From positions 3,620,001 through 3,684,000 of the forward strand of contig NZ_CP042467.1 in NCBI RefSeq assembly GCF_007993755.1: a stretch of 64,000 nt of DNA, in the 5' to 3' direction. Both the position numbers and the translations under genes were made by a program. The DNA is from Microvenator marinus (GTDB lineage: Bacteria; Myxococcota_A; Bradymonadia; Bradymonadales; Bradymonadaceae). Below, in pieces: positions 13,409 through 37,040 of this stretch (positions are counted from its first letter, which is position 1; the number at the start of each line of letters is the position of its first letter). The notes below the pieces were generated by a model that worked only from the letters and a program-made list of their open reading frames with translations, did not search any database and was not told the origin of the DNA.

Positions 13409-13532
13409 CGCCGTTCGTTTTGAACGTGGAGTTTTGTCTGGAAATGAGAAAGCTCTAATGTTCCGTCTCAAGAAACTTGGCGGGTGAGTGCCTACGTTGT
13501 GCACCGTGGACTTCTCTTCAGAAGGTTTGACC

Positions 13533-14810
13533 ATGGATGCAGTGGGTAAATGGCTCCAAATATCGATCTTTGCTGGTGTTTTTCTGGCTCTGACGCCGAG
13601 CGGCTTCGCTCAGGCGACGTGTCCGACTCAGAGCAAGGTGGAAATACAAAACTTGACGACGACCGCCGAGAAGGTCTGGGATGAGCGCTACACTGAGCGC
13701 CGAAGGGCTCTTGGTGCTGGTCGGGATGACGCCAAGTCGCTGGCTCCGGGTCGCGTCAGGGATTTGAATCTGACCTTTGAGCCTGAGTTTTCGCTCGATG
13801 GCCAAAGCCATGAGTATATCGGAGCGGCCACACTGGCTGTGGAGCTTGGCAGTCTCTCCGAGGCTCGTCGCGGCGCGATACATGCCGATTGGCAGGCGCT
13901 TGAATCTGAGCTTCTGGTTGAGCGGTGGCGCTTTGTGGACGAAGTACAGGACGCTTATCTCGTCTGGCGAGGCCACGAGCTTGAGCGCGGGCACCTTGAG
14001 GTGTATCTGAGCGAGGCGAACGAGGAGCTTGAGCCGATTCGTCAGGCACAGGGCCGCCAGCTGATTTCGAAGCTGGACTTAGCAGACATGGAGGCGGAGG
14101 TGGCGTGGATTCGAGCCGAGCTGGCCGAGGCAGGTCGCCGCTCGCGCCTTGCAGCCGCGCGTCTTGAGGCGTTGCTCGGCGTCCAGTGTCCGCTGGAGCT
14201 CCCGCCCGCAACGCACGATGCGCCGGATAAGGCGAATCCATGGTCAGCTCTCGTGTCGCGGGCTCAAGCCTTTCCTGAAGTACGCGTTTATGAGGCAAGA
14301 CGCGCGGCGCTCGAAGCCCGCGCCCTTGTTCATGAAGTGGCTCACCCGATGCTTTTAGAGATCGGCGTAGGGGCGCGCACCGTGGCGTTCCATGAGAATT
14401 TCCTGGGTCCTGTGTTGGGATTGACACTTCCTCTCCAACACCCGGAAGGCCCCGATGCGGCGCTTGCACGGGCTGAGGCAGAGGCGCAGAAAAGTGCAGC
14501 CGAGTGGGTGGCCGTGCGTATCCGCTCAGAGCTTGAGGCCGAGGCCTCGAACTTCGATGTGCTGGTTCAGGGTTATTTCGAGCTCTTGGACGGCTACGTG
14601 CGCCCCCTGGAGGAGCGCGCCGCGCTGATGAGCGAGGCATTCAAAGCGTCTCAGGTCGAGATCGACCGCGTGATACGTGCGCGGCGCGAGCTCCATGAAG
14701 CAGAACACCAGTTGATCTTGCATCGTGCTGAGATCGACGCGCGCCGGCTCAAAGCGGGCGCAATCCAACAACTCCTTGAACAATCCGGCAATACCGGAGG
14801 GAACCCATGA
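13533..14810 (+). CDS. TolC/CzcC-family outer membrane efflux protein
   Basis: A 425-residue protein starting at ATG 13533 (GAAGG at 13521-13525). It has a Sec signal (ISIFAGVFLALTPSGFAQA) and long alpha-helical hairpins rich in Ala, Glu and Arg, as in OEP-family outer membrane factors. The two repeated halves expected of the family are visible as RQAQGRQLISKLDLADMEAE near the middle and SEAFKASQVEIDRVIRAR near the end. It would form the outer membrane duct for the adaptor and RND pump encoded immediately downstream. Its stop overlaps the adaptor start (ATGA). Codon use matches neighbouring genes. Confidence 0.85.
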   Translation: MDAVGKWLQISIFAGVFLALTPSGFAQATCPTQSKVEIQNLTTTAEKVWDERYTERRRALGAGRDDAKSLAPGRVRDLNLTFEPEFSLDGQSHEYIGAATLAVELGSLSEARRGAIHADWQALESELLVERWRFVDEVQDAYLVWRGHELERGHLEVYLSEANEELEPIRQAQGRQLISKLDLADMEAEVAWIRAELAEAGRRSRLAAARLEALLGVQCPLELPPATHDAPDKANPWSALVSRAQAFPEVRVYEARRAALEARALVHEVAHPMLLEIGVGARTVAFHENFLGPVLGLTLPLQHPEGPDAALARAEAEAQKSAAEWVAVRIRSELEAEASNFDVLVQGYFELLDGYVRPLEERAALMSEAFKASQVEIDRVIRARRELHEAEHQLILHRAEIDARRLKAGAIQQLLEQSGNTGGNP

Positions 14811-15868
14811 AAAACCTACTCTTTTTAGGGCTCGTCCTGGGCCTGCTTTCAGCCTGTCAGGATAGCACTGAGCACCCGGAGGCCACACCGGCCACGGGAT
14901 TGGATGCCCGGCTCAGCTTCACCGAGGCGCGTGCGCCGACCAAGGCCAGCGCTTTGCGTTTGCTGGGTCAGGTCGAGGTCCCTTCGAGCGCGCAATGGGT
15001 CGTGGGGCCTTCGGTTGAGGCGCGCCTTGTGGCCTGGGAGGTCACCACAGGCTCGAAGGTCGAGGTGGGCACGACGCTGGCTACGCTTGTGAGTCCGGAA
15101 CTTGGCGACCTCGCGAGTGTGGAGAACGAGCTGCGCCGCGTGGTGGGTCAACGCGAAAAGAATATCGGCCGTCTCAAAGAGTCGGTGGATGCTGGCTTTA
15201 AGTCCTCCGAGTCGCTCTACGACGCGGAACTCTCTTTGAGTGAGGCACGCGCTCAGTTGCAGCGTGTCCAGCAGCAACTCGGCGTCCGAAATGCGAATAT
15301 TCGGCGCGGCCAGAAGAGCCAGTGGGAGTGGGTGTCGCCCGTGGATGGGCTTGTCACGGATATCGACTGTGCGCCGGGCGGTCTCTACAGCGCGGAGTCG
15401 CGCTGTATCACGATTGTTGCAGCTGATGCGCCTCGGCTTCGCGTCGACGTCTCGGAGACGGAGGTTGCGAAGCTGGCCGGCTACACGCCGAGCGCACGCT
15501 GGATGCCAGCCGGTGCAAGTGAAGCGATGAGCCTTGAGTTCGACCGCCGTTCAGCTGGCTTTGACTCGGTCACGCGTACCCAAGCGCTCTACTTCAAAGG
15601 CGTTGGACTGACGGTGGGAGCGAGCGGCTCGGTGGAGCTGGAAATCCCGGCGCCGAAGGGTGCCGTGCTGGTACCGAGGATGTCGGTCGTCGAGGTTCAG
15701 GGGACACCGAGTGTCTTTGTGGACAAGGGCGGCGAGAGACCCGAGGCCGTTGCTGTGGAAGACGTGGGTCGGTCTGGTGAAGACCGGCTCGTGACGGGGA
15801 TTGCCGTGGGCGACAAGGTCGTCGCTCGTGGCGCCTTTGCCCTTAAAAGCGCGCTTGCGTTCGAGTGA
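14807..15868 (+). CDS. RND efflux periplasmic adaptor (membrane fusion protein), lipoprotein
   Basis: A 353-residue adaptor. A lipoprotein signal ends at LLSAC (Cys about 17). A biotinyl-lipoyl-like domain (EARLVAWEVTTGSKVEVG, and WVSPVDGLVTDIDCAPGG) flanks a helical hairpin (ENELRRVVGQREKN to ARAQLQRVQQQLGV), followed by beta-barrel and membrane-proximal domains. It links the CzcA-like pump to the TolC-like duct. No His- or Met-rich metal-binding segment was seen. The ATG overlaps the previous stop. The pump gene starts 8 bp after its stop. Confidence 0.88.
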   Translation: MKNLLFLGLVLGLLSACQDSTEHPEATPATGLDARLSFTEARAPTKASALRLLGQVEVPSSAQWVVGPSVEARLVAWEVTTGSKVEVGTTLATLVSPELGDLASVENELRRVVGQREKNIGRLKESVDAGFKSSESLYDAELSLSEARAQLQRVQQQLGVRNANIRRGQKSQWEWVSPVDGLVTDIDCAPGGLYSAESRCITIVAADAPRLRVDVSETEVAKLAGYTPSARWMPAGASEAMSLEFDRRSAGFDSVTRTQALYFKGVGLTVGASGSVELEIPAPKGAVLVPRMSVVEVQGTPSVFVDKGGERPEAVAVEDVGRSGEDRLVTGIAVGDKVVARGAFALKSALAFE

Positions 15869-15875
15869 GGTGATT

Positions 15876-18800
15876 ATGTGGTTATTGCACCGGATCATAG
15901 AGCTCAGCGTACGCCACAGGACATTTGTCCTCTTTGGGGTTCTGGCTTTTGTGTTCGTGGGCGTTTGGGGCGTCTCTCAGGCGCGATTTGACGCGTTTCC
16001 TGACCTGACGAACGTGCAGGTTCAAGTCTTGACGGCATCCGCCGGGATGGCGAGCGAGGAGGTCGAGCTCCTGGTCACGTTGCCGATCGAGCGTGAGTTG
16101 AGTGGTATTCCGGGCGTGCAGGAGCTTCGGAGTCTTTCGCGCACGGGAATCTCAGCGGTGACGGTGGTCTTTGTGGACGGCACCGATATCTGGCACGCCC
16201 GCCAGCTGGTCAAGGAGCGTCTTGATGCGGCTCGAGAGGCGATTCCGGAGACCGCTGGGACCCCTGCGATTGGCCCGCCTGCAACCGGGCTTGGCGAGGT
16301 CTATCAGTTCACGGTGGCATCCGATCGCCACACCAAATACGAGCTCTATCGGATTTACGAGCGGGACATCGCCCCGCGCCTTGTGGCGGTGGATGGCGTG
16401 GTGGAGGTGAATGCCTGGGGCGGTGGCACGCCTCAGTTGGACGTGAACCTTGACCCTTATCGCTTGGCAGCGCGCGGCATGACGGCGGGCGAGGTAGCGG
16501 AAGGAATCCAGAGTGCGCTGGGTCTGGTCACGGGCGGCGCGATGGTGGATGGCCCTGAGCAGATCTTGGTGCGTGCGATTTCGAACCCGACCTCGCCTGA
16601 CGAGGTTGAGGCGATTGTCCTGCGTGTGGACGATGCTGGCCGGCCCATCTACGTCCGCGATGTCGCGGAGGTGGTGGAGTCGGGGGCGCTGACGGTGGGC
16701 ATGGGCTCGGCCGATGGGCGCGGCGAGGTTCTCTTCGCGATGGCGCAGTTGCTGACTGGGGCGGACGCATTGAGCGTGGTCGATGACCTGCGTGACCGCA
16801 TGGAGACCGTGAAGGAGGCGTTGCCTGACGGGGTTCAAGTCGAGGTGATTTACGACCGCAAGAAGCTCGTCGGGAGCACGCTCTTCACCGTGGGCAAGTC
16901 TTTGGCAGAGGGTGGTTTGCTCGTGATTCTGGTCTTGCTTCTGATGCTCGGCGATGTGCGAAGCGGGCTTCTGGTGGCATCGGTGATCCCGCTGAGCATG
17001 TTGGGGGCTTTCCTTGGCCTGAATCTGCTCGGATATTCGGGGAACTTGATGTCTTTGGGCGCCATCGATTTTGGTCTGATCGTCGACGGGACGATCGTGG
17101 TGGCGGAGAGTATCGTGGCGCTAGAGTTGGTGCGCCGCGAGGATTTAAGAGAGAAGGTCATCGAGCGCACGCGCAGTGTGGCGGGTCCAGTGCTCTTTGC
17201 GGTGGGGATCCTGATTCTGGTCTATATCCCGATTCTGACGATGACAGGGGTGGAAGGGAAACTCTTCAGGCCGATGGCGTTGACGGTCCTCTTGGCGCTG
17301 ACGACGGCTCTGATCCTGAGCTTCACGTATATCCCGGCGGCGGCTTCGATTCTGGTCCGTCCTAAAGGACATCAACAGACCTGGCTCACGGCCAAATTGG
17401 AGTCTCTCTACACACCAACGCTACGCGCGGCGATGCACCGGCCCTTTGCGGCGGTATCGGCTGCTCTGGGCGTTTTGGCTGTCAGCGTGGTTGCGGCCAT
17501 GACGATGGGCGTTGAGTTTGTGCCTCAGCTCCAGGAGGGCGATATCGTGGTGCAGACCGCGCGCGTGCCAAGTATTTCTGCTGAGCAAGCGCTTGAAGAT
17601 GTGTCGCGAATCGAGCGACTTCTGGGGGAATTTCCAGAGGTTGCTCGCGTGGCGAGCCGCAGTGGTGCCCCCGCCTTGGCGACGGACCCGATGGGGCTGG
17701 AGGAGTCGGATATTCTGGTGAAGTTACACCCGATGTCGGAGTGGACGACGGGGCGCACGCAGGAGGAGTTGGTCCAGGCGATGTCCGAGCGGCTGGAGGG
17801 CGAGGAGTTGGGGGCGGAGCTGACGTTTACGCAACCCATCGAGATGCGTTTTAATGAGCTTCTGGAGGGGATCACGAGTGATGTGGGCGTGAAGGTCTTT
17901 GGGCCGGAGCTGGGCACTCTGATGGCGATTTCTCAGGACGTTGCAGCTCAGTTGGAGTCGGTCGAAGGGGCCGCGGATGTGAGTGCGCCTACCATCGAAG
18001 GGGTTCCCGGGCTGGAGGCACGCTTGCAGCCAGACCGAATTCAGGTGCTCGGCGCGTCCACGGAAAATATCTTGATGTTGGTTGCCGGGGTTCAGCGAGG
18101 TACGGAAATTGGCTCCGTCCAGCGGGGGCAGTTTCGCGATCCGATCGTGATGAAGACGGCCTGGGACGCGGGTGTGCCGATTTCCGATATGCCGATCGCG
18201 ACGCGTCATGGTGGCGGGACGTCGATGGGTTCGATTGCGGATGTGCTGAATGTGACGACACCTGCGACGATCGAGCGTGAGGCAGGGAGCCGTCGCTTTG
18301 TGGTGGAATCAAATGTGCGCGGTAGGGATTTGGGCAGCTTTGTGAGAGAGGCACAGGACCGCGTGGCTCAGAATGTGAAGCTTCCCGACGGCTACTGGCT
18401 TGAATGGTCGGGGAAGTACGAGCAACTGCGCTCTGCTGCGACCCGAACGGCGATCACGGTGCCGATTATCTTGTTCCTGATTCTGGGTGTGCTTTACGTG
18501 GCGTTTCGTGACTGGCGCAGCGCGCTGCTGATTTTCCTAAATGTGCCGGTAGCAGCGTCCGGCGGGATCATCGCCTTGTGGTCCCGAGGGCTGCCGGTAT
18601 CGATGAGTGCGATCGTCGGTTTGATCGCGCTCTTCGGGATCGCGGTCATGAACGGCATCGTGCTCCTGAGTCGGACACGTGAGCTCCATCAGATGATGAG
18701 CGCCGCTGAGGCTGCGACCCGGAGCGCTTCAGAACGTTTCCGTCCGGTCTTAATGACGGCGTTCGTGGCGGGGATCGGTTTCCTTCCGATGGCCCTTCAG

Positions 18801-18947
18801 GTCGGGATCGGGGCTGAGGTCCAGCGCCCGCTTGCGACCGTGGTGATTGGTGGTTTGGTAACGAGTACCCTCTTGACCCTCGTGGTCCTCCCCACGCTTT
18901 ATGCGCGGTTCGGTCGACGCTCAGAAGAACCGCGGGCCGCCGAATGA
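15876..18947 (+). CDS. Heavy-metal-efflux RND transporter, CzcA/CusA family
   Basis: A 1023-residue inner membrane proton/metal antiporter with 12 transmembrane segments in the RND pattern (TM1, large periplasmic loop, TM2-6, second loop, TM8-12). The TM4 segment reads AIDFGLIVDGTIVVAE. That has the two Asp residues and the Glu characteristic of the HME class that exports divalent cations, rather than the drug-pump pattern. FGIAVMNGIVLLS and RFRPVLMTAFVAGIGFLPMAL are conserved TM10-11 regions. The ATG at 15876 (GAGGTG upstream) gives a normal N-terminus; a longer frame starts at 15801. The stop overlaps the regulator gene, placing pump and two-component system in one operon. The metal ion cannot be told. 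Confidence 0.92.
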   Translation: MWLLHRIIELSVRHRTFVLFGVLAFVFVGVWGVSQARFDAFPDLTNVQVQVLTASAGMASEEVELLVTLPIERELSGIPGVQELRSLSRTGISAVTVVFVDGTDIWHARQLVKERLDAAREAIPETAGTPAIGPPATGLGEVYQFTVASDRHTKYELYRIYERDIAPRLVAVDGVVEVNAWGGGTPQLDVNLDPYRLAARGMTAGEVAEGIQSALGLVTGGAMVDGPEQILVRAISNPTSPDEVEAIVLRVDDAGRPIYVRDVAEVVESGALTVGMGSADGRGEVLFAMAQLLTGADALSVVDDLRDRMETVKEALPDGVQVEVIYDRKKLVGSTLFTVGKSLAEGGLLVILVLLLMLGDVRSGLLVASVIPLSMLGAFLGLNLLGYSGNLMSLGAIDFGLIVDGTIVVAESIVALELVRREDLREKVIERTRSVAGPVLFAVGILILVYIPILTMTGVEGKLFRPMALTVLLALTTALILSFTYIPAAASILVRPKGHQQTWLTAKLESLYTPTLRAAMHRPFAAVSAALGVLAVSVVAAMTMGVEFVPQLQEGDIVVQTARVPSISAEQALEDVSRIERLLGEFPEVARVASRSGAPALATDPMGLEESDILVKLHPMSEWTTGRTQEELVQAMSERLEGEELGAELTFTQPIEMRFNELLEGITSDVGVKVFGPELGTLMAISQDVAAQLESVEGAADVSAPTIEGVPGLEARLQPDRIQVLGASTENILMLVAGVQRGTEIGSVQRGQFRDPIVMKTAWDAGVPISDMPIATRHGGGTSMGSIADVLNVTTPATIEREAGSRRFVVESNVRGRDLGSFVREAQDRVAQNVKLPDGYWLEWSGKYEQLRSAATRTAITVPIILFLILGVLYVAFRDWRSALLIFLNVPVAASGGIIALWSRGLPVSMSAIVGLIALFGIAVMNGIVLLSRTRELHQMMSAAEAATRSASERFRPVLMTAFVAGIGFLPMALQVGIGAEVQRPLATVVIGGLVTSTLLTLVVLPTLYARFGRRSEEPRAAE

Positions 18948-19012
18948 GTAGGCTCTCCCCAGCCCCGCTTGATGCTGTTATGCTCCGCGCCGACTCTTTG
19001 GATGGGCCGCCA

Positions 19013-19699
19013 ATGCTCGTGTTGATAGTGGAGGATGATGACCGCGTTGCGCAGTTCCTGCATCGCGGCTTGCGGGAGGAGGGGCATACCGTCGATCGCT
19101 GCGCCACAGGGGAAGATGCGCTGAGGCAAGGGCCGAGTCAGCCGTACGATATCGTACTCCTGGATTGGTCGCTTCCGGATACGGACGGCATCACGGTGTT
19201 GCGGCGCTGGAGAGAGGCCGGGATGACGGCGCCAGTGATCATGCTGACGGCCCGAAGCGGTGTGGATGCCACGGTGCTCGCGCTCGATGCGGGTGCCGAT
19301 GACTATATCGAAAAACCGTTCAGCTTTGAGGAACTCCTGGCGCGGATGCGGGCGCATGCGCGTCGAAACGATCAGACGGGCGAGTCGAATGCAGTGCATG
19401 TGGGCAACGCGACAGTGGACCTTAGAAAGCGCGTGGTGTTGCGCGACGGGCTTGAGCACGAGCTAACCTCCCGTGAATTTGACCTGCTCGACCTCTTTCT
19501 AAAGCATCGCGGTGAGGTGCTGAGCCGCAGCGCGATTTTGGATCGTGTCTGGGGTATGTCGCATGATCCGAACACGAATGTGGTGGACGTCTACGTGCGC
19601 TATCTGCGCTCAAAGCTGGATTCGGAGCAGAGTGAAGGGTCGGTGATCGAGACTGTGCGCGGTCGTGGTTACCGACTCCGCAATGGAGACGAAGCTTGA
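19013..19699 (+). CDS. OmpR-family response regulator of the metal-efflux operon
   Basis: About 228 residues: a receiver domain starting MLVLIVEDDD with the phospho-accepting Asp at about residue 51 (LLDWSLPD) and the conserved Lys in YIEKPF. A winged-helix DNA-binding domain follows (TSREFDLLDLFLKHRGEVLSR ... VVDVYVRYLRSKL ... TVRGRGYRL). An in-frame ATG at 18944 overlaps the pump stop and would add 23 residues not typical of the family; 19013 is preferred but 18944 is possible. It probably activates this operon in response to periplasmic metal, in the manner of CopR/CusR/CzcR. Confidence 0.9.
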   Translation: MLVLIVEDDDRVAQFLHRGLREEGHTVDRCATGEDALRQGPSQPYDIVLLDWSLPDTDGITVLRRWREAGMTAPVIMLTARSGVDATVLALDAGADDYIEKPFSFEELLARMRAHARRNDQTGESNAVHVGNATVDLRKRVVLRDGLEHELTSREFDLLDLFLKHRGEVLSRSAILDRVWGMSHDPNTNVVDVYVRYLRSKLDSEQSEGSVIETVRGRGYRLRNGDEA

Positions 19700-21090
19700 G
19701 TACTCTACCCACATTGCGCTCACTGATCGCGCGTCGGGTAGGGCTGGTCTTTGCCGTCTGCGTGGCCCTATTCACGTTGATCGTGAGTCTGGTCGTACAC
19801 CATCAGGTCCATGCCCAAACCGATGCAATGCTCTTGCAGCTCGCCGAGTCCGAGTCTCAGGGGGTCTTGGAGCAATTTGCGACAGGCGTGCATGTCCACG
19901 ACACTTCTTTGCGCTTGCCCTCGCTCAATTCGCCGGTGGTGGAGATGTCATCGGTGGCCTACGGCCTTGATCGCCACGTGATCGCAGCGACGTCCAATTT
20001 CCGGCAGCACGAGCTCCCCGAAGTCTGGACTCAAGGCCTTAAGCGCGGCGGTGACTTCAACGTCTTCAACGACCCGACCTCGGATCTCCGGGTGGCTGCG
20101 GTAGCGGCCCAGACGCCAGATGGGGCGATCCTTGTCTTTGCGATGGCGGTGCCACACGGTCTTATCGATGCGGCTGTGTATCGGACGATTCTGCTCATCG
20201 CTTTGCTCGCCCTCGGGATGTTGATTGCGATGTTGATCGCCTCGAACTGGGTGGCGCGGCAGATCGCGGAGGACCTGCAGGAGCTGAGCACGGTATGTGC
20301 CGAGTTCAAGGATGCGCCGGAGCAGCTCGAAGACTGGCTCGCGCGCTTTGATGGCTCGGCGCGGTCCACTTGCGAAACCGCCATGCTCGCGAAGACGGTG
20401 CGCGAGCTTTTGAGCCGACTGCAGCGCCTGGTCGATGTGCAGAATCGGTTTGTAGCGGAGGCGTCTCACGAGCTCCGGACTCCACTCACGGCGCTTCAGG
20501 GGCAGCTAGAACTTGCGCTTCGGCGTGAGAGGGATGCCGAGACCTACCGTGAGTTCATCGAGAACGCGCGTATCGATGCAAAGCGCCTGGCTGATCTTGC
20601 TGAACATCTTCTGGAGGCTGCGAGGGCGCGTATTGAGGAGTTGCGGCCCGAAGAGCTTGACCTGGGGGATGCCTTGCAGGCGTCCGTCTCGCGCAATGAG
20701 GCTATGCTTCGTGAGGCGGGAATCGATGTTGTGCTTGAGTCTGATGATTCCAGGGTTTGTGCGGATCCCATCGCGACCGCACGCGTCCTGGATAACTTGA
20801 TTGGAAACGCTGTGCGTCATAGTCGCGCGACCACCTTGCGATTAACGAGTAAGGGCGGCGTCCTGAACATCGAAGATGACGGCCGTGGTTTGCCGGAGAT
20901 CGTGCGCCAAAACTTATTCGTTCCTTTTGCTCAGCGAAAAGGGGATGGGCATGGACTAGGTCTCTTCATTGCAGCGAGGCTGATGGAGAAACAACATGGC
21001 CGTCTTGAGTTGGTTGAGGGGGATGGAACGCGATGGCGCTGCACCTTCGATCAGAAATGCGCGGATGATCACAAGCCGCAAGCCAGCTAG
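19696..21090 (+). CDS. Sensor histidine kinase of the metal-efflux operon
   Basis: A 464-residue membrane kinase. TM1 (about 15-35) and TM2 (about 163-185) flank a periplasmic sensor domain of about 125 residues containing several His and Asp. A HAMP-like segment follows. The HisKA domain has the phospho-accepting His258 in EASHELRTPLTAL. The HATPase domain has NLIGNAVRHS, EDDGRGLP and HGLGLFIAARLMEKQHG. It starts at a TTG that overlaps the regulator's TGA, so regulator and kinase are coupled. The architecture matches CusS/CzcS-like kinases; the metal specificity is not readable. The cytochrome b561 gene ends 6 bp away on the other strand. Confidence 0.9.
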   Translation: MSTLPTLRSLIARRVGLVFAVCVALFTLIVSLVVHHQVHAQTDAMLLQLAESESQGVLEQFATGVHVHDTSLRLPSLNSPVVEMSSVAYGLDRHVIAATSNFRQHELPEVWTQGLKRGGDFNVFNDPTSDLRVAAVAAQTPDGAILVFAMAVPHGLIDAAVYRTILLIALLALGMLIAMLIASNWVARQIAEDLQELSTVCAEFKDAPEQLEDWLARFDGSARSTCETAMLAKTVRELLSRLQRLVDVQNRFVAEASHELRTPLTALQGQLELALRRERDAETYREFIENARIDAKRLADLAEHLLEAARARIEELRPEELDLGDALQASVSRNEAMLREAGIDVVLESDDSRVCADPIATARVLDNLIGNAVRHSRATTLRLTSKGGVLNIEDDGRGLPEIVRQNLFVPFAQRKGDGHGLGLFIAARLMEKQHGRLELVEGDGTRWRCTFDQKCADDHKPQAS

Positions 21091-27312: not shown

Positions 27313-27795
27313 TTAGAAATTGGGGTGCTCAAAGTGTGATGCGTACGCATGCAGCGCGTTCACTGCGGCGGGGATTCCTTCCTCTGAAAGGGGGTCCTTC
27401 TCAAGCACTGCAGCCGCCTTGAGCAGGTCTGCCAAGATGATGTGGAGGATGGCGTCAGCCTTCGGCTCAAGGTTGCAGTTATTGAAGAAGAAGTCGATCT
27501 GGGTACGAATCGTGCCGGCATACGCCTTTGCATCCTCGGCCTTGAGTGTCTTGTCTTTGTGCGCCTTATAGAGAGGAATAATCTCCTTATGGAGCACGTC
27601 CATCCCCTGGCGAAGTGGTGCATCGGTGGCCCATTTTTGCCCGTTATTGAGCTCGAGCTTAACGCCTTCCATACTGCCGTGATCGTGTGAGTGGTCATGG
27701 TCGAGGCCCCCGTGGCCATGATGGTGCCAAACGGCAAGTCCACCTACACCAAGCACGAGCACACTTCCCGCTACAGCGACTAGTTTCTTATTCAT
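27313..27795 (-). CDS. His-rich secreted protein, conserved, function unknown
   Basis: A 160-residue protein. ATG 27795 has GGGAGAAAC upstream and overlaps the TetR gene by 8 bp. An N-terminal membrane anchor or signal (KLVAVAGSVLVLGVGGLAV) is followed by a histidine cluster (WHHHGHGGLDHDHSHDHG), then a helical domain with KWATDAPLRQGMDVL and NNCNLEPKADAILHIIL. The KWATDAPLR(Q/K)GM segment is familiar from small conserved periplasmic proteins found near metal or efflux genes. The His cluster suggests binding of zinc, nickel or copper (inference). It is coupled with the TetR regulator. Confidence 0.75.
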   Translation of the reverse strand: MNKKLVAVAGSVLVLGVGGLAVWHHHGHGGLDHDHSHDHGSMEGVKLELNNGQKWATDAPLRQGMDVLHKEIIPLYKAHKDKTLKAEDAKAYAGTIRTQIDFFFNNCNLEPKADAILHIILADLLKAAAVLEKDPLSEEGIPAAVNALHAYASHFEHPNF

Positions 27796-28405
27796 GAGTT
27801 TCTCCCTTGTTGGCGCGAATACCGCGCTCAAAAATTGCAAACGTTTCCGGTGCGTTCTCGATGATTGCCTGAGGCTCACCCACCAGCATGGATTGCATCA
27901 CCAGACCCTGTATCGAGCCCACAAAGAGGCCGGCAGCTACTTTGGGTGAGATGTTGCTGTCGATTTCTCCCATGGCCTGCCCGCGCTTGATCTGCATCTC
28001 GATCACCACACCATAGCGATAGAGTAAATTTCGGACGATCTTCTTGGCTGGTGATTCACCCTTGGACTGGAGCTCACCGAAGAGCATCCGTGGCACTCCA
28101 GGGTGCTCTGAGACGAATTGGATATGAGTGAGGAACATGGCCTCTAATGCTTTGATTGCCGAGACTTCGCGCGCCGCGACTGCCTCCACACGGCCGAGCA
28201 ATTTCTCAGCCACCCAAGACATGACGCTTTCCCAAATGGACTCCTTATTGGGAAAATGCCTAAAGAGTGCGCCTTGAGTCACGCCCATGTGCTGGGCAAT
28301 CTGTGATGTGGTGATCTCATTGGGGTTGTTCTCAGCCGCAAGTTCGATAACCGACTCTACAGTTACGGATTTTCGGTCTTCTGATTTCAAATACGCTTGG
28401 GTCAC
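27788..28405 (-). CDS. TetR/AcrR-family transcriptional regulator
   Basis: A 205-residue repressor. The N-terminal helix-turn-helix (SVIELAAENNPNEITTSQIA, then MGVTQGALFRHFPNKESIW) is typical of TetR. The C-terminal ligand domain is helical and resembles the YfiR/AcrR-like group (PGVPRMLFGEL). It is first gene of a pair with the His-rich protein. The promoter region 28406-28470 contains AAAGATAG on the minus strand (28446-28439), the same half-site as in the operator-like sequences before the RND adaptor gene and before the small membrane-protein pair. It is therefore the best local candidate to bind those sites. Confidence 0.88.
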   Translation of the reverse strand: MTQAYLKSEDRKSVTVESVIELAAENNPNEITTSQIAQHMGVTQGALFRHFPNKESIWESVMSWVAEKLLGRVEAVAAREVSAIKALEAMFLTHIQFVSEHPGVPRMLFGELQSKGESPAKKIVRNLLYRYGVVIEMQIKRGQAMGEIDSNISPKVAAGLFVGSIQGLVMQSMLVGEPQAIIENAPETFAIFERGIRANKGETHE

Positions 28406-28446: not shown

Positions 28447-28581
28447 TTGCTGGGAAAATTTCAAGCCCTCATAAAAATGCCTGAGAGCTTAATTTAAAGG
28501 GGTGTTCAGCTATCAATGTGTCGGGTCTTGCACTCGAGCTACCATCTGGTAAAGTAATTGAGGGCTTACTTTGGGCGTTTC

Positions 28582-29130
28582 ATGAAAGAAGTTAGAGAAA
28601 GTGAGTGGATTCAGCGTGCGAAGCACGGGGATTTGGATGCTCTTAGCTCTTTGGTGGTGATTCACCAAGATAGGGTTTTTCGCCACGCATTAAGCATGCT
28701 GGGCGATGTGGACGATGCCCATGATATCACTCAGGATGTGTTCCGTATTCTCATCGAGAGTATCGATGGGTTTCGTGGCGAGGCCAGTCTTGGAACCTGG
28801 CTGCACCGTGTCACGACGAATGCGGCATTGATGCATCTGCGTCGCGTCAAAAGACGAAGAAAGTACGAAGTGTTTCCGCCCGAGGCTTGGGAGGCATGTG
28901 CGCCGACTCCGTCCACAGACGCGCTTGTAGATACACGAAGGCATCTGCGTCGCGTCCATTGTGCCTGGAACGAGCTTGATGAAGATCACCAGAAGGTCCT
29001 GAGTATGCGCGGGATCGAAGGGGTGCCGATGGTGGAAATGGCCCGCGCGCTAGGTCTTAGCACAGCCGCGACGAAGAGCCGTATCCACAGAGCGCGGGCA
29101 CGTCTGAAGGATATTCTAGATCTCCCTTAA
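28582..29130 (+). CDS. ECF-type RNA polymerase sigma factor
   Basis: A 182-residue sigma-70-family protein. Region 2 has HALSMLGDVDDAHDITQDVF and GWL-type LGTWLHRVTTNAALMHLRR. Region 4 has LDEDHQKVLSMRGIEG and the helix-turn-helix MVEMARALGLSTAATKSRIHRARARL. ATG 28582 is preferred to a TTG at 28558. No anti-sigma gene with a clear zinc-finger or membrane domain follows; the next gene is an RND adaptor about 80 bp downstream. It may direct transcription of the efflux genes or act elsewhere; the arrangement is suggestive only. Confidence 0.88.
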   Translation: MKEVRESEWIQRAKHGDLDALSSLVVIHQDRVFRHALSMLGDVDDAHDITQDVFRILIESIDGFRGEASLGTWLHRVTTNAALMHLRRVKRRRKYEVFPPEAWEACAPTPSTDALVDTRRHLRRVHCAWNELDEDHQKVLSMRGIEGVPMVEMARALGLSTAATKSRIHRARARLKDILDLP

Positions 29131-29209: not shown

Positions 29210-30265
29210 ATGTGGTACATCGTCTTAGTTTTTATGGCTGGAATGGTTGGATGCAGCGCCGAGGATGAAACACCCGAAATGGTCTCTCGGCCCTATCCCG
29301 TGCGTGTATCTAAGGTTTCCACTGGCGACCTCGTTGACGGTGTGCCGGCTTTGGGGACCATCTCCTGGGAACGCCAGGTTAAGGTTCGCTCGCAGGTGGG
29401 CGGCGTGATTCACGAACTCACCCCAGAAGAAGGCACGAAGGTCGAAGGTGGTGCCGTGCTCGTCCGAATCATCGCTCCCGAAATGAAGGCGAGGCTTGAA
29501 CAGATTGACGCGGAGCTGAGGCGTGCGAATGCGGAGCGCGACTATGTGTGCAGCAATCACGATGTGGACAAAAAACTCGGTGAAGCCGGGGCGCTCGAAT
29601 CCGCTCGAATTGATATCAGCAAGAAGGGTTGCACCACGGCTACTGAGGCCGTCAAGGGCATTGAGGCCCGTAGGTCTGAAGCGCGGGCGGCAATGGCAAA
29701 ACTCACCGAGAAGGCGCCTGAGACTGGCACTCTCCTCGAGTGGTATGTGGAGCCCGGAGAATTTGTCACCCCTGGTCAACCCCTCGGTGTGCTTGGAGCA
29801 GGCGATACCCGGATTGTTGCCTTGGTGCCGGAGGTCGACATCAAACGCGGTGTTGGAATCGGGACAAAGGTCTTGGTCCGCACGAGTAATCAGTTGCTAT
29901 CTTCTGAGGTCGTCTTCGTGTCAGCCCTTGCGAAAGGCCCGGCCCGAGTCACTCGCGTGGAAATTGGTTGGCCTCAGGGTGCGTCGACACCCCTCGCAGG
30001 TACTTCGGTGGACATCACCCTTGTGCTCAATGAAGCAAAGAATGCGCCGATTGTCCCCGCGGAGGCGGTGTATCAGCGGGATGGGGGATTTTGGATACGG
30101 ACCATTCAGGACGCGAAAGCACATGAACATAGAGTCACACCAGTCCTAAGTTCCGACGGAAAGGTCGCACTCCCAAGTGATGGGTTCGATGCCGAAGTCG
30201 TTGTCGTTTCCAGACCAGCTGCAGTCCCTGAGGGGGCCGAGCTCTTTATTGTGGAGGCACCATGA
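29210..30265 (+). CDS. RND efflux periplasmic adaptor, lipoprotein
   Basis: A 351-residue adaptor with lipobox AGMVGC (Cys about 15). A lipoyl-type half-motif (QVGGVIHELTPEEGTKVEGG) is followed by a helical hairpin (IDAELRRANAERDYV to IEARRSEARAAMAKL), the second half (GTLLEWYVEPGEFVTPGQPLG) and beta-barrel domains. AAGGAG precedes the ATG. Two cysteines in the hairpin (about 109 and 131) are unusual for an adaptor and could form a disulfide. The stop overlaps the start of the fused pump/duct gene, so all parts of a tripartite pump are encoded by two genes. Confidence 0.88.
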   Translation: MWYIVLVFMAGMVGCSAEDETPEMVSRPYPVRVSKVSTGDLVDGVPALGTISWERQVKVRSQVGGVIHELTPEEGTKVEGGAVLVRIIAPEMKARLEQIDAELRRANAERDYVCSNHDVDKKLGEAGALESARIDISKKGCTTATEAVKGIEARRSEARAAMAKLTEKAPETGTLLEWYVEPGEFVTPGQPLGVLGAGDTRIVALVPEVDIKRGVGIGTKVLVRTSNQLLSSEVVFVSALAKGPARVTRVEIGWPQGASTPLAGTSVDITLVLNEAKNAPIVPAEAVYQRDGGFWIRTIQDAKAHEHRVTPVLSSDGKVALPSDGFDAEVVVVSRPAAVPEGAELFIVEAP

Positions 30266-33200
30266 GTGGTTCATCGATGACCGAAATCTTGGTAGCCAAC
30301 AAATACCTTGTTTGGACACTCGCACTTGCTGCGGCAATCTTTGGAACTCTGGCGTACCAAACGCTGCCGATGCAGCTTTTTCCGGACACTGCACCGCCGC
30401 TCGTCAACGTGATTACCACCTATCCAGGTGCCTCGGCTGAGGACGTGGCTGAACGCGTAAGTCGGCCGATGGAGGAGGAGTTCGCTTCTTTGGAAGGCGT
30501 GGTCAATGTGAAGTCTTCTTCGCAGGACAACCTCTCCATCGTTTCCGTGGAGTTCCATTACAATCGTGAAGTTGACCTTGCCGCAGTCGATGCCCAAAAC
30601 GCAATATCGCGGATTCGAAGCGACCTCCCGTCCGAGATTCGGGAGCCACAGGTCCTCAAGTTCTCAACGGCTGACCGCCCCATCATCACAGTGGGGGTTG
30701 TCGCGGAGCCGATGACCCGCGCACGAACCATGGCTGAGGATACCTTCGCCCCCCATTTTCAGCGTGTTCCAGGTGTTGCTGCCGTGGATGTCTTTGGAGG
30801 TGCAAAAGAGAGTGTTTTGGTGGAGGTAGATCGCGAGAAATCTCGAGCATATAACGTGCCGATAGGGCGCATTATCGAGGTCCTAAAGACACACAACGTA
30901 AACGTGCCGGCAGGCGCGATACGCAGTGATGCCTCGCGAACTGGTTTTCGGATCGAGGGCGAGGCAAGAGATCTGGAACGTCTAAGAAGCCTTCCGCTCG
31001 CGCAGATGGACGCGAGCATCCTGAGGCTCGGAGATATTGCCAACGTTAGTTATGGCGCGCTCGATGACGACGCAACATTTGGCATTGATGGGGAACGGGC
31101 GATCGCGCTTCAGGTCTACAGAACGGACGAAGCCAATACGGTGGAGGTGGTGCACGAGATTATTGCCACGACAGAAGTTCTGAAGGGTGAATATCCCGAC
31201 GTGCAGTTCCTGATCGGCGAGGAAAGCGCAAGCTTTACGGAATTGTCGATCAACAACCTGCTCTCGAATGTGTGGCAGGCGCTGCTCTTGGCTTCGATCA
31301 TCATCTTTCTCTTCATCGGTCGATTCAAAGCTTCCATGGTGGCCGTGGTTTCAATGCCGCTCTCATACGGTTTGACATTCGCCTTAATGAAGCTCAGTGG
31401 CACGGAATTCAACATGGTTACCCTCACGGCTGTGATCCTCGCGGTTGGTATGGTGGTGGATGCTGCCGTTGTGGTCTTAGAGAATATCAGTCGTAAGATG
31501 GACGAGGGCATGCCTGCTGCTCAAGCGGCTATCGAGGGTGTTGACGAGGTCCGCCTCGCGGTACTCGCTGGGGCGGCCACGACCATCGCAGTACTACTTC
31601 CGCTTCTCTTTGTGCCGGGTTTTGTGGGCAAGACGTTTGGGCCACTCGCGTCAATCTTGCTCTTTGCGTTCACGAGCTCCATTGCAGTGGCTCTCACGTT
31701 AGTTCCCGTGATGAGTATGTACACAGGCGGTGCCGGGAAGTTGGATGCATTTGCAGGCCGAATCACAAGACCATTTGCGTGGCTTATGGAGAAGGTGCAG
31801 CTTGTCTACGGCTGGCTCCTCAAAGGTGCGCTCGCGCATCGATGGCTCGCCGTGGTGGCGGGTTTCTTGATGCTCGTCGCTGGCGCCGGTTTGATGGCGA
31901 CCCGAGGCATGGATGTGCTTCCAAAGATGGACGGAGGGAGTTTCTTTGTGTCGCTACAAACTTCGCCCGGCTCTTCGGTGGAGGAAACGACGCGTGTAGT
32001 GGCCGAGATTGAGAAGATTTTGAAGGAAGAGGAAGAGATCGTGAAAATCCAGTCTCAGGCTGGATTTGAACCGGGCATGAAGACGAGTTCTACCTCCGGA
32101 GCACAGGGTGCAACGCAAGGTTTCATCACTGTGACACTCACCCCAAGAACTGAGCGCGACGAGACAATTTGGGACATTCAGGAGCGTGTGCGAGGACGAG
32201 TGTCTCAGATTCCGAACATCAGCACCTTCGCTGTTCGTGAGTTGGGAAATACGTCCAAGGCCACCACGGCAGCACCTGTTGTGGTTCGCCTGAGCGGCGA
32301 GGATCCCTTGGTCTTAGACCAACTCGCCGATGACGTCGTGAGGCGTCTTGGTCAGGTTCCGAATGTGGTCGAGCCCGTTCGAACGTGGTCTATCGACCAA
32401 GAGCGTGAGTCGGTCCGTGTGGACGAACGCCGTGCCGCGCTTCTGGGGCTAAACCCACTGGGAATCGGTCAGCAGATGATGATGGGCACGGATGGAATTG
32501 AGGTAGGACAAGTGCGCGGTGGTCTAGGAGAGACGACGCCGGTACGCGTGCGTTATGCCCGTGATGGGCAGACAAAGGTCGAAGATTTGTTCGATTTCCC
32601 GCTCGTCGTGGCAAACGATCCCGGGCAAGTGGTGCCTGTGCGAAGTGTGGTGAAAAGTGTGCCGGTGGTCGGGCAGAGTCTGGTCACGAGGGAGCAATTC
32701 GTTCCCACACTTGATGTCACGGCGTTTGTGGAAGGTCGTCCGTTGAGTTTTGTGACCGCAGATGTCACCGAAGCCATCTCAAAGATGTCAATGCCTCTGG
32801 GCTACCAGGCGACGATCGAGGGCGAGAATAATGACCTTGGGGAAGCTAAAGGGGGGCTCTTGGGGGCGCTTGGTATCTCAGTGCTTGCGGTCTATCTGCT
32901 GCTCGTGGCGCAGCTTAGGTCTTGGATGCATCCTCTGACGATCATGGCGTCAGTGCCTCTGAGCATCATCGGTGTAGGACTCGCCCTCAAATTGGCTGAT
33001 AAGTCGATATCAATGCCGGTCATGGTGGGCCTCATTCTCTTGGTTGGAATTGTGGTCAACAACGCCATTATCTTGATCGACTTCATTCGACAGGCCCGCG
33101 AACAAGGGATGGCGAGGCAAGAGGCCGTGCTTCAGTCCGTGCAGACCAGATTCCGGCCTATCATGATGACATCTCTCTCGACCATTGTGGGTATGATCCC

Positions 33201-34689
33201 CTTGGCTGCAGAATGGGCCCTTGGGGCTGAGCGCTTCTCCCCGCTCGCGGTGGCCGTGATCGGAGGCATGACGACCGCTACTTTCCTGACTCTCGTGTTG
33301 ATTCCGGTGCTCTACGATATATCGGATGATCTCAGCCAGTTTGTGAGCAAGAGGTTGGGGCGCAAGGCCTCCGCATTGGCGTTTATTGGCGTGCTCGTGT
33401 TTCCTGTGTGGGCGAGCGCCGAAACTCCAGTCCTAACCATTGACGAGGCTGTGGCAGCGGCTCTTGAGACGAGTCCGCGTCTCCAAGCCCAGGAGGCTTC
33501 TAAGAAGGCTTCGAGCACCAGGGTTGACCAAGCTAGCCGGCGAAGGCTCCCAAAATTGGACCTGCAGGCCAACTACTCAAGACTCAGTGAGGTAGAACCC
33601 GGGCAGCTCACGCTTCCTACCGCGATGCCAGGTCAGGAGGCGCCGAGTGTGCAATTTGGAGAGGCGATTACCGATATGTTTAAGGTGCGTCTGACGCTTA
33701 CGCAGCCGATCTTTACAGGGTTTGCGGCCAGCGCGGGTCATTCCATGGCTCAGGTTGGTACCGAGGTGGCTCAGGCCCAGGCTGAGCTGACAGAGGCTGA
33801 TATCCGACTTCAGGTGCAGGAAGTCTATCTTTCCACCTTGAGCGCAGAGGCTCTGACGGGTGTGGCAAACGAATCGGTGAGAGTCTTGGAAGGAAACCGG
33901 GAGCGTGTGGCCTTGATGCATAGAGAGGGGCGTGCGAGCGATCTCGACCTCGCCCGTATTGATTCGAGGCTTGCTGAGGCCAAGGTCCAGCAGAGCAAGG
34001 CCCAGGGGCAGGTGTCCCTCCTGAGGGAGACTCTGAGGGTGCTCACTGGCATCGAGGGCGACCACAGACTTGTCAATCCAGAACACGGTGGCGGCGAACC
34101 CTTTGAAGGGGCGTTTGAGAGTGCCTTGAAAAAGCGGCCTGAATTGGTTCTGGCTAGATATCGTGCCGAAATCTCCGAACACCAGATCGATATTGCGAGC
34201 GCCGCACTCTATCCACAGCTCGCTTTTGTGGCCGGATACACCTACGCAAATCCACATGAACGCTATTTTCCTATGCGAAACGAGTTTAACGGCTCGTGGG
34301 ATCTCACTCTCGCGCTGTCGTGGACAATTTGGGATTGGGGCAGCTCTTGGAGTAAGCGTGAGGAGGCTCAGTTTAGTAGGGAGGCCGCTCAATTCGAATT
34401 GAGCGAGCTTGAGCGCGGGACCGAACTCCTAGTCCGGCGACTCTTATTGGACTACCAAAATGCCGGTCGCGATCTCTTAGCCTTGCAGGAGCGGCAAGAA
34501 GTGGCCAAAGAAGGCCTCAGGGTGGCACAAACACTCTATGAGGCGGGCCGAGCATCGCTGACCGACGTGCTAGACGCCGAGCTCGAATACACGCGGGCCA
34601 GCGCTGAGGTTGCCCAAAACACGTTTAGCCAGCATCTGATTCTGGCCAGACTCGCGCGCCAAACGGAGGCTGTGGCGTTCCGCAATTAA
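30262..34689 (+). CDS. RND multidrug-type transporter fused to a TolC-like outer membrane factor
   Basis: A single 1475-residue open frame. Residues 1 to about 1030 are a complete RND pump of drug-efflux (HAE-1) type, with two periplasmic loops, VGMVVDAAVVVLEN in TM4, and NNAIILIDFIRQ in TM10. Residues about 1035-1052 (SALAFIGVLVFPVWASA) look like a signal peptide with an A-S-A cleavage site, after the basic KRLGRK. From about 1053 to 1475 follows a full outer membrane efflux protein (PKLDLQANYSRLSEVEPG, helical hairpins, EAGRASLTDVLDAELEY). Signal peptidase cleavage would release a free duct; if not cleaved, the pump and duct would be tethered. RND-OMF fusions are known in some Bacteroidetes metal pumps. 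The stop codon shares TTAA with the convergent gene. Confidence 0.92.
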   Translation: MSGSSMTEILVANKYLVWTLALAAAIFGTLAYQTLPMQLFPDTAPPLVNVITTYPGASAEDVAERVSRPMEEEFASLEGVVNVKSSSQDNLSIVSVEFHYNREVDLAAVDAQNAISRIRSDLPSEIREPQVLKFSTADRPIITVGVVAEPMTRARTMAEDTFAPHFQRVPGVAAVDVFGGAKESVLVEVDREKSRAYNVPIGRIIEVLKTHNVNVPAGAIRSDASRTGFRIEGEARDLERLRSLPLAQMDASILRLGDIANVSYGALDDDATFGIDGERAIALQVYRTDEANTVEVVHEIIATTEVLKGEYPDVQFLIGEESASFTELSINNLLSNVWQALLLASIIIFLFIGRFKASMVAVVSMPLSYGLTFALMKLSGTEFNMVTLTAVILAVGMVVDAAVVVLENISRKMDEGMPAAQAAIEGVDEVRLAVLAGAATTIAVLLPLLFVPGFVGKTFGPLASILLFAFTSSIAVALTLVPVMSMYTGGAGKLDAFAGRITRPFAWLMEKVQLVYGWLLKGALAHRWLAVVAGFLMLVAGAGLMATRGMDVLPKMDGGSFFVSLQTSPGSSVEETTRVVAEIEKILKEEEEIVKIQSQAGFEPGMKTSSTSGAQGATQGFITVTLTPRTERDETIWDIQERVRGRVSQIPNISTFAVRELGNTSKATTAAPVVVRLSGEDPLVLDQLADDVVRRLGQVPNVVEPVRTWSIDQERESVRVDERRAALLGLNPLGIGQQMMMGTDGIEVGQVRGGLGETTPVRVRYARDGQTKVEDLFDFPLVVANDPGQVVPVRSVVKSVPVVGQSLVTREQFVPTLDVTAFVEGRPLSFVTADVTEAISKMSMPLGYQATIEGENNDLGEAKGGLLGALGISVLAVYLLLVAQLRSWMHPLTIMASVPLSIIGVGLALKLADKSISMPVMVGLILLVGIVVNNAIILIDFIRQAREQGMARQEAVLQSVQTRFRPIMMTSLSTIVGMIPLAAEWALGAERFSPLAVAVIGGMTTATFLTLVLIPVLYDISDDLSQFVSKRLGRKASALAFIGVLVFPVWASAETPVLTIDEAVAAALETSPRLQAQEASKKASSTRVDQASRRRLPKLDLQANYSRLSEVEPGQLTLPTAMPGQEAPSVQFGEAITDMFKVRLTLTQPIFTGFAASAGHSMAQVGTEVAQAQAELTEADIRLQVQEVYLSTLSAEALTGVANESVRVLEGNRERVALMHREGRASDLDLARIDSRLAEAKVQQSKAQGQVSLLRETLRVLTGIEGDHRLVNPEHGGGEPFEGAFESALKKRPELVLARYRAEISEHQIDIASAALYPQLAFVAGYTYANPHERYFPMRNEFNGSWDLTLALSWTIWDWGSSWSKREEAQFSREAAQFELSELERGTELLVRRLLLDYQNAGRDLLALQERQEVAKEGLRVAQTLYEAGRASLTDVLDAELEYTRASAEVAQNTFSQHLILARLARQTEAVAFRN

Positions 34690-36338
34690 GAGGCGAGGCG
34701 CCGCAGCGTTTGGCCACCGCTAAGGGTCGAGACATTCTGCATCCCCATACCATTGAGAATTCGCGCGGCCACGTAGCTTCGCTTGCCTACGGCACACACC
34801 ACCACCGTCTCAACGAGTGGGTCCAACTCATGCATGCGGGCACGGATCTCACAGACCGGGATGCCGATATGCTGGCAAAGCAATGGATCGTCTTCTCGCT
34901 CTGATTGAGACCTCACGTCGATGACCTGTAGGCCTTCGAGGGACGCGTCATAAGGCGCAAAACGCACCAGGCCGGCCATCTGATTGGATGCGGCAAACGC
35001 TGCCATGTGTATCGGGTCTTTGGCGGAACCAAACGGTGGAGCATAGGCGAGGTCCACCCCGGCGAGTTGGTCGACGGTCATCCCGGCAGCAATTGCTGTT
35101 GCGGCAACATCGAGTCGCTTGTCGACACCCTCCCCACCAACTCCCTGCAAACCAAGTACTCGACCCGTCTCTCGGTCATATACAAGCTTCAAGGTAATCA
35201 GCTCAGATCCCGGAAAATAGCTCGCGTGATTCGCGGCGACGATCGTCACAGTGTCTGCCGAAATGCCCAGTCCCCTGGCTCTCTTCTCGCTCAAGCCAGT
35301 GATGCCGGCGTTTCGGCCAAAGACCCGCACGATCGAGGTGCCTGCCACCGCGGGCATCTTCAGTGAGCGCCCTGTCGCGGCGTGTTCACCGGCGAGTCGA
35401 CCGGCTCGGTTCGCGGGGCCAGCGAGCGGCACCCAAGTCTTGCTCTCGGTGAGAGCACACGGATACACGGCGACGTCGCCTACCGCGTAAATATCGGGGT
35501 CTGATGTGCGCATATACGCGTCCACATCAACGGCTCCATTCGTGTGCAACGTGAGGCCGGCCTCGCGCGCGAGCCCAGAGTTTGGACGCACGCCGATACC
35601 AAAGATGACGATATCGGTAGCGATGCGCGTGCCGTCGCTCAGGATCGCTGCACCGACACGCGTATCTTCCTCACGAACCAACTCCACAACCGACCGGCCA
35701 GTGAAAACCTGGACGCCTCGGCGCTCAAGCTCATGAGCAATGGGCAAAGCGATCTCACGATCAAGCAGCGGAAGCACCTGGTCCTTAAGTTCCACCAGGG
35801 AGACCTCCATGCCGCAATCTTGCAGTTGTTCGACCATCTCGAGCCCGACATAACCCGCACCCACCACCAACGCGCGTCGCGCCCTCTGGACGGTCTTTAC
35901 CGAGCAGATCTGGTCCATGTCCTCCATGTTGCGCAACGTAAAGACGTTCGGCGCGTGCACTCCTTCCATACTCGGAAGCACGGGAGAAGCCCCTGTGGCG
36001 ATGATCAACTTGTCGTAAGAGAGCGCGTATTCCTCACCCGTTTTCAGGGATTTGACGTGTACCTTCCGACCCACTCGATCGATGGCGATGGCGCGGCTGA
36101 AGGTCCGGACGTCGATCTTGAAGCGCTCTTTGAAGGTCTCAGGCGAAGCGATCAAGAGTGAATCTCGATCTGGGATCTCGCCGCCAATATGATAGGGCAA
36201 CCCACAGTTCGCGAACGAGACATGCTCATCCTGCTCCAGCATGATGATCTGTGCATTCTCGTCCATTCTTCGGGCGCGGGTTGCAGCAGAAGCACCCCCA
36301 GCGACCCCACCGATAATCACAATCTTTCTTACATCCAT
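34686..36338 (-). CDS. CoA-disulfide reductase with C-terminal rhodanese domain
   Basis: A 550-residue flavoprotein. The N-terminal FAD-binding IGGVAGGASAATRARR is followed by the redox Cys45 in SFANCGLPYHIGGEIP, typical of CoA-disulfide reductases. A second nucleotide-binding GAGYVGLEMVEQL site and the FAD motif (YAVGDVAVY) are present. The last 100 residues are a rhodanese domain with active Cys about 515 in VVVCAVGKRSY. Such fused enzymes reduce CoA disulfide, persulfide or polysulfide with NAD(P)H. GGAAG lies upstream of ATG. Coexpressed with the ArsR-rhodanese gene 30 bp upstream, it suggests sulfane-sulfur or sulfide handling. Confidence 0.9.
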   Translation of the reverse strand: MDVRKIVIIGGVAGGASAATRARRMDENAQIIMLEQDEHVSFANCGLPYHIGGEIPDRDSLLIASPETFKERFKIDVRTFSRAIAIDRVGRKVHVKSLKTGEEYALSYDKLIIATGASPVLPSMEGVHAPNVFTLRNMEDMDQICSVKTVQRARRALVVGAGYVGLEMVEQLQDCGMEVSLVELKDQVLPLLDREIALPIAHELERRGVQVFTGRSVVELVREEDTRVGAAILSDGTRIATDIVIFGIGVRPNSGLAREAGLTLHTNGAVDVDAYMRTSDPDIYAVGDVAVYPCALTESKTWVPLAGPANRAGRLAGEHAATGRSLKMPAVAGTSIVRVFGRNAGITGLSEKRARGLGISADTVTIVAANHASYFPGSELITLKLVYDRETGRVLGLQGVGGEGVDKRLDVAATAIAAGMTVDQLAGVDLAYAPPFGSAKDPIHMAAFAASNQMAGLVRFAPYDASLEGLQVIDVRSQSEREDDPLLCQHIGIPVCEIRARMHELDPLVETVVVCAVGKRSYVAARILNGMGMQNVSTLSGGQTLRRLAS

Positions 36339-36368
36339 TGGTACTTCCTTTGGGGATTGTCCCCATGT

Positions 36369-37040
36369 TTAGACTCGGGCTGCTCTTGTGACCGAGAAGC
36401 CTCGTTGGCGCCATTCATAGACGCTGATAGGCAATCGCCTCGTCCGGATACCGTGCTCCCTAAGGAGCTTGATGCCGTTGATCGAGGTAATACAGAAAGG
36501 GCCCCGGCAGTATACAACGACCGGCACGTTGCGTGCCTTTATCTCAGCAGCTTTTGACTCGATTTCGTGCAACCCGATGTTCTCAGCCCCGGTAATATGC
36601 TCAAATTCGTAGTCATCGGCCGGGCGCAGATCGACCAGCAAGACGCGCCCGGAATTGATCTGCTCCACGAGATCTTCATACTCCTCGTCGAGGATATCGT
36701 TCTCGTCCACGAACTTCTCTTGAACCACCATCCTGGCCCCTGGGTGTACTCGAGACGCGGTCTCCTGCACGCTCAACAACATGGCACGGACCTGGTCCGA
36801 AGCTAGGAAGTAGAGCACTTGTCTGCCTTCCTTACGGCTAACGACGAGGCCAGCTTCGAGCAGAATACGAAGCTGTATGCTGATGTTTGCCACCGGATGG
36901 CCCGCCTGTTCCGCGATGCGTTGTACGGGTTTCTCGCACTGAGCTATCAAGCTCAGAATCGTCCAGCGAAGGGGATTAGAGAGGGCCTTTCCGATCTTGG
37001 CCAGCTCTTTGGTCAGTGTGTCTTGTTGCAAAAGGTCCAT
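36369..37040 (-). CDS. ArsR-family regulator fused to a rhodanese domain
   Basis: A 223-residue protein. Residues 1-95 form an ArsR winged helix (IGKALSNPLRWTILSLIAQ, then AGHPVANISIQLRILLEAGLV). Residues about 120-223 are a rhodanese domain with Cys178 in VVVYCRGPFC and an unusual second Cys (183). Such fusions sense persulfide or polysulfide through the rhodanese Cys (known for related sulfur-responsive regulators). GGAGGATGAG precedes the ATG. A 26-bp near-perfect palindrome at 37098-37123 lies 58 bp upstream and probably is its autoregulatory operator. The CoA-disulfide reductase gene follows. Confidence 0.9.
   Translation of the reverse strand: MDLLQQDTLTKELAKIGKALSNPLRWTILSLIAQCEKPVQRIAEQAGHPVANISIQLRILLEAGLVVSRKEGRQVLYFLASDQVRAMLLSVQETASRVHPGARMVVQEKFVDENDILDEEYEDLVEQINSGRVLLVDLRPADDYEFEHITGAENIGLHEIESKAAEIKARNVPVVVYCRGPFCITSINGIKLLREHGIRTRRLPISVYEWRQRGFSVTRAARV

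Follow-up and report, generated by a model that had tools for sequence, protein, structure and literature searches.

In most descriptions, a tripartite efflux pump consists of three proteins that are made separately. The locus described here raises the question of how a single gene might supply two of them. In the window (the whole 64,000-nucleotide stretch of Microvenator marinus DNA analysed in this study), one frame reads open for 1475 codons and holds both a complete RND permease and a complete TolC-type outer membrane factor (OMF), as listed in Table 1. Is this frame real and, if so, is the channel cut away from the pump, does it stay attached, or is it made from a start of its own? As set out below, the product is very probably a pump-channel precursor that signal peptidase I would split into the ordinary parts of a tripartite pump.

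The original prediction, made from the DNA sequence without database searches, had called an RND transporter and a complete OMF in one frame, and both halves are borne out by profile and by fold. The N-terminal part matches the Pfam family ACR_tran (PF00873) over residues 7-1019 and profile positions 2-1018 of 1021, scoring 727 bits against a cut-off of 28, and the C-terminal part matches OEP (PF02321) in two stretches, with 192 bits. An AlphaFold2 model of residues 1019-1475 is a whole TolC protomer (pLDDT 84, falling below 50 within the junction), and Foldseek matched it to TolC with a TM-score of 0.83 by target length. Two findings had been named that would speak against a genuine fusion, namely a frameshift at the junction and homologues in which the two parts are always separate genes. 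A search for pump-channel fusions in this order, which the prediction had proposed, was run at family and phylum level and on the GTDB contig set; it instead returned 14 further Myxococcota loci with the same RND protein and the same kind of OMF in one frame, and ten of the fused proteins align end to end with 43-54% identity to the window's protein. Because these 14 loci share the identical fused order and the source genome is a single 5.85-Mb contig, a frameshift artefact can be dismissed; the fused frame is real, neither a chance event nor a sequencing slip. That it reflects an assembly or sequencing artefact, or a gene in decay, is extremely improbable: several relatives do lack the OMF, and one RND gene (in genome G044) terminates in an apparent cut-off signal peptide, but the fused relatives come mostly from separate assemblies, motifs are conserved across both parts and the OMF fold is complete.

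Table 1. Features of the fusion gene and its operon (positions in the window).
Feature	Position	Strand	Remarks
RND permease-OMF fusion ORF	30262..34689	+	1475 aa plus stop
RND permease part, residues 1-1018	30262..33315	+	Pfam ACR_tran 7-1019; last TM helix ~996-1014
D400-A401 in TM4	31459..31464	+	AcrB D407 retained, Ala in place of D408; both invariant in 10 fused orthologues
N933 in TM10	33058..33060	+	position of relay lysine K940 in AcrB; invariant in ten orthologues
Short tail with KRLGRK, residues 1019-1035	33316..33366	+	predicted cytoplasmic; n-region of internal signal peptide
Signal-peptide core and c-region ASALAFIGVLVFPVWASA, residues 1036-1053	33367..33420	+	pLDDT <50 in OMF model
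Predicted signal peptidase I site A1053/E1054	33418..33423	+	A1053 invariant
Predicted mature OMF, residues 1054-1475	33421..34686	+	Pfam OEP, TolC fold
Periplasmic adaptor (MFP) gene, lipobox-like GMVGC	29210..30265	+	end overlaps fusion start by 4 nt
TetR-family regulator gene, divergent	27788..28405	-	upstream of adaptor and fusion

The segment that joins the two parts is of particular interest. It reads DISDDLSQFVSKRLGRK-ASALAFIGVLVFPVWASA, with the predicted cut before ETP. The KRLGRK stretch (residues 1030-1035) and the signal-peptide-like segment ending ASA (1051-1053), followed by E1054, are present as originally described, and the junction has the features of a signal peptidase I substrate: the basic run, a core with a mean hydropathy of 2.74 over 11 residues, and A1051 and A1053 at positions -3 and -1. 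Across ten aligned orthologues, the stretch between Y1018 and P1097 holds a single invariant position, A1053. The window's genome also encodes stand-alone OMFs whose signal peptides look similar, as well as three homologues of type I signal peptidase. Cleavage as a lipoprotein by signal peptidase II was considered and rejected, no Cys being found near the site in 14 scored orthologues.

RND-OMF fusions are common and have arisen more than once, in at least three unrelated families. A second fusion is encoded in the window's own genome (C1:4222257-4226810, minus strand; L007, 1518 aa). Its RND part is only about 28% identical to that of the window, its OMF lies very distant in the OMF tree, and an acidic linker follows its predicted cleavage site; in this family the linker after the predicted site often runs to 40-80 residues. 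Of 379 Myxococcota genomes, 74 have relatives of the second fusion, and in 51 of these the frame is longer than 1450 aa. Elsewhere in the same genome (L278, C1:1384600-1386700, minus strand), an OMF match falls in a stop-to-stop frame of 683 aa whose N-terminal stretch is long. The third family is that of the CusA-type fusions of Bacteroidetes, which the original prediction had named. When 99 genomes of that phylum were surveyed around a Bacteroidota record, about 42 CusA/CzcA matches were seen to sit in frames of 1437-1523 aa, commonness in Bacteroidota being judged here by frame length. A profile of Myxococcota OMFs and related ones matched 16 of the 21 CusA-type frames that were read; the OMF went undetected by that profile in the other five, probably through divergence.

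In the junctions of all three families, TM12 is followed by a hydrophobic core and then by a signal peptidase-like site, and most of those inspected also have a net positive tail. Junctions of 15 orthologues, 27 second-family members and 21 CusA-type proteins were inspected by a scripted scan, with those it missed read by eye (two loci were left unanchored by the script and L267 was mis-anchored, and the automatic site lies a few residues off in several rows). Under a strict rule (Ala at -1 and a small residue at -3), sites were counted in the real junctions and in 2000 shuffles of them, the junctions within each family being related and thus not fully independent. The second family has strict sites in 24 of 26 junctions (shuffled mean 13.3) and the CusA family in 17 of 20 (shuffled mean 8.7), and none of the 2000 shuffles scored as high in either case. 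For the window's family the count is 13 of 14 against a shuffled mean of 9.6, a value reached in 39 of 2000 shuffles; this motif excess is modest because the region is rich in alanine. One second-family junction, L187, has Thr at its best -1 position. All 21 CusA-type junctions read Ala, Ser, Thr or Gly followed by Gln, with Gln at +1. The Q-rule for signal peptidase I substrates of Bacteroidetes predicts Gln at exactly this position (PMC5837995), and the agreement counts toward processing by signal peptidase I.

The original prediction had left two fates open for the channel, cleavage by signal peptidase or delivery while still attached to the inner membrane, and the former has emerged as much the better supported. 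Attachment would make the junction a thirteenth transmembrane anchor. The segment is indeed flagged as a membrane segment (mean 1.65 over 19 residues), but it is weaker than the pump's own helices, and the signal peptidase sites, including the Q-rule Gln, have been kept. Geometry adds a further difficulty. In MexAB-OprM the intermembrane distance is 23 nm, the RND part accounts for 7 nm and a further 6 nm or so leads to the OMF (PMC4754349), which places the OMF tip about 13 nm from the inner membrane; the N-terminal helix of TolC itself sits between the equatorial and membrane domains (PMC13082787). In the model of the window's OMF, the first helix begins near residue 1060, about 10 residues from the hydrophobic core, and such a linker, fully extended, reaches no further than about 3.5 nm. 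It is thus implausible that the window's protein stays uncleaved with its OMF correctly placed, since a linker of about 10 residues is too short for the distance of well over 10 nm to an OMF in the outer membrane. This argument covers the window's protein; in the second family, whose linkers are often 40-80 residues long, geometry alone does not force cleavage, and such linkers would suit a tethered channel better. Taken together, we regard a permanently attached OMF as very improbable.

It is also highly unlikely that the OMF arises from internal translation initiation within the fused frame, with the fusion product minor or absent. A GTG codon (V1028, nt 33343) does precede the basic stretch and would yield a plausible stand-alone signal peptide, but no Shine-Dalgarno-like sequence lies ahead of it. 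Moreover, some genes (3 of 14 orthologues, 4 of 26 in the second family and 7 of 21 of the CusA type) have no ATG, GTG or TTG in the stretch from TM12 to the core, and in these the OMF can therefore come solely from the fused frame. The simpler view is that the exported OMF derives from the fused product.

We infer the cleavage, and likewise the assembly, substrate and regulation of the pump, from these observations. In the processing that we propose, one gene would give a pump-channel precursor, whose RND part would insert in the inner membrane and leave its C-terminus on the cytoplasmic side. The basic tail together with the hydrophobic segment could next serve as an internal Sec signal peptide for export of the OMF, and the cut by signal peptidase I would fall after A1053. 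The released OMF may trimerise in the outer membrane and form an ordinary tripartite pump with the RND trimer and the lipoprotein adaptor, which has a gene of its own. Such pumps have a stoichiometry of 3:6:3 (PMC4754349), which calls for pump and channel at 1:1, and the fusion would yield just this ratio. A more elaborate version, which we consider unlikely, is that cleavage is timed, so that the still-tethered OMF docks on its own pump, or nucleates assembly with it, before release by signal peptidase I. If so, the fusion would guide the pairing of pump and channel besides setting their ratio, and several unrelated RND-OMF fusions would have arrived by convergence at co-translational assembly of trans-envelope pumps.

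How might such a gene have come about? Some other members of the window's clade have a separate OMF gene directly downstream, which overlaps the RND gene by 4 nt (L155, L107) or lies 1 nt apart from it (L120), and some have no OMF nearby. Since the two genes abut in these relatives, loss of one stop codon together with a small indel would suffice for fusion. In KSB1, Zixibacteria, Calditrichota and relatives the OMF is encoded upstream, in the order OMF-MFP-RND, and these OMFs form one clade with full support in the OMF tree, apart from the fused-type OMFs. RND trees place the window, with full support, within a Myxococcota clade where fused, separate and OMF-less members are interleaved, with at least 7 changes of state on the careful tree and 8 on the quick one. 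One early fusion followed by many losses and several independent fusions would both fit this pattern. The RND gene of G044 (L134), nested among fused members, ends at about 3630-3740 in a basic stretch and a short hydrophobic run followed by two stop codons, with no OMF downstream; this end looks like a cut-off signal peptide remaining after loss of the OMF. A tblastn search found no plasmid records covering 80% of the fusion. Open frames of 1600-2150 aa in G135, G248, G109, G100 and G068 had suggested a three-way fusion of adaptor, pump and channel; this was ruled out, the adaptor lying in another frame and the extra length being upstream open frame in GC-rich DNA or, in G068, a short N-terminal extension.

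Together with the adjoining MFP gene, the fusion encodes a tripartite efflux set in one place. A TetR gene adjoins most related operons, and the neighbouring TetR protein probably controls the pump. An ECF sigma factor gene (window 28558-29130, plus strand) separates the TetR gene from that of the adaptor, and none was found beside the operons related to the fusion operon. On the other side, a pyridine nucleotide-disulphide oxidoreductase (34686-37040, minus strand), whose C-terminal part weakly matches rhodanese, adjoins an ArsR-type regulator that has a rhodanese domain of its own. The window also contains, 10 kb from the fusion, a conventional efflux cluster (13488-21090, plus strand), which offers a natural contrast: OMF, adaptor and RND protein each have their own gene there, and genes for a response regulator and a histidine kinase come next.

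The type of pump proved less typical than first thought. The original prediction had called it HAE-1-like from the motif VVDAAVVVLEN, but this motif is without the second relay aspartate of AcrB and MdtB. Two of the three proton relay residues of AcrB (D407, D408 and K940) are replaced, D408 by A401 and K940 by N933, and the HAE-1 model TIGR00915 gives 428 bits, under its curated cut-off of 940; the HAE-1 assignment was rejected on these grounds. The CusA/CzcA heavy-metal (HME) model TIGR00914 likewise stays under its curated cut-off, at 368 bits against 701. Because of the TetR neighbour, and because MdtB is the nearest solved structure to the permease part (E 1e-102), our guess is that an organic-compound pump is likelier than a metal pump.

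A literature search, which covered few subscription journals, found no published account of RND-OMF fusions or of their working, and the accessible part of a 2021 review (PMC8277102) does not describe them. The fusion architecture itself is widespread, and it is the recurring signal-peptide junction that deserves notice. If the fused proteins are split by signal peptidase I, they would be natural two-membrane precursors that fix the stoichiometry of pump and channel. The fusion would also identify the channel that serves a given pump, a pairing that is usually difficult to read from genome sequence. If cleavage takes place in the Bacteroidota members, the exposed N-terminal Gln would be expected as pyroglutamate.

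Among known systems, the pump part shows full-length RND homology to MdtB, MexB and AcrB (HAE-1), which are without a fused OMF and from which it differs at the relay positions and in its sub-threshold HAE-1 score. The fold of residues 1054-1475 matches TolC, OprN, CusC and SilC over its whole length, yet these are products of separate genes with an N-terminal signal peptide of their own. The CusA/CzcA-type fusions of Bacteroidota share with the window the order RND then OMF in one frame and the signal-peptide-like junction, and differ in belonging to the heavy-metal RND subfamily, in their OMF and in the Gln at +1. The second fusion family likewise has one RND-OMF frame, a signal-peptide-like junction and an adjoining adaptor gene, and is set apart by the divergent RND part, OMF and linker noted above. 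Outside efflux, the fbcH gene of Bradyrhizobium encodes a cytochrome b-c1 precursor that is cleaved at an internal signal peptide. As proposed for the window's protein, two envelope proteins there come from one precursor split by signal peptidase; unlike the window's case, both mature parts of the fbcH product belong to one inner-membrane complex, and neither goes to the outer membrane.
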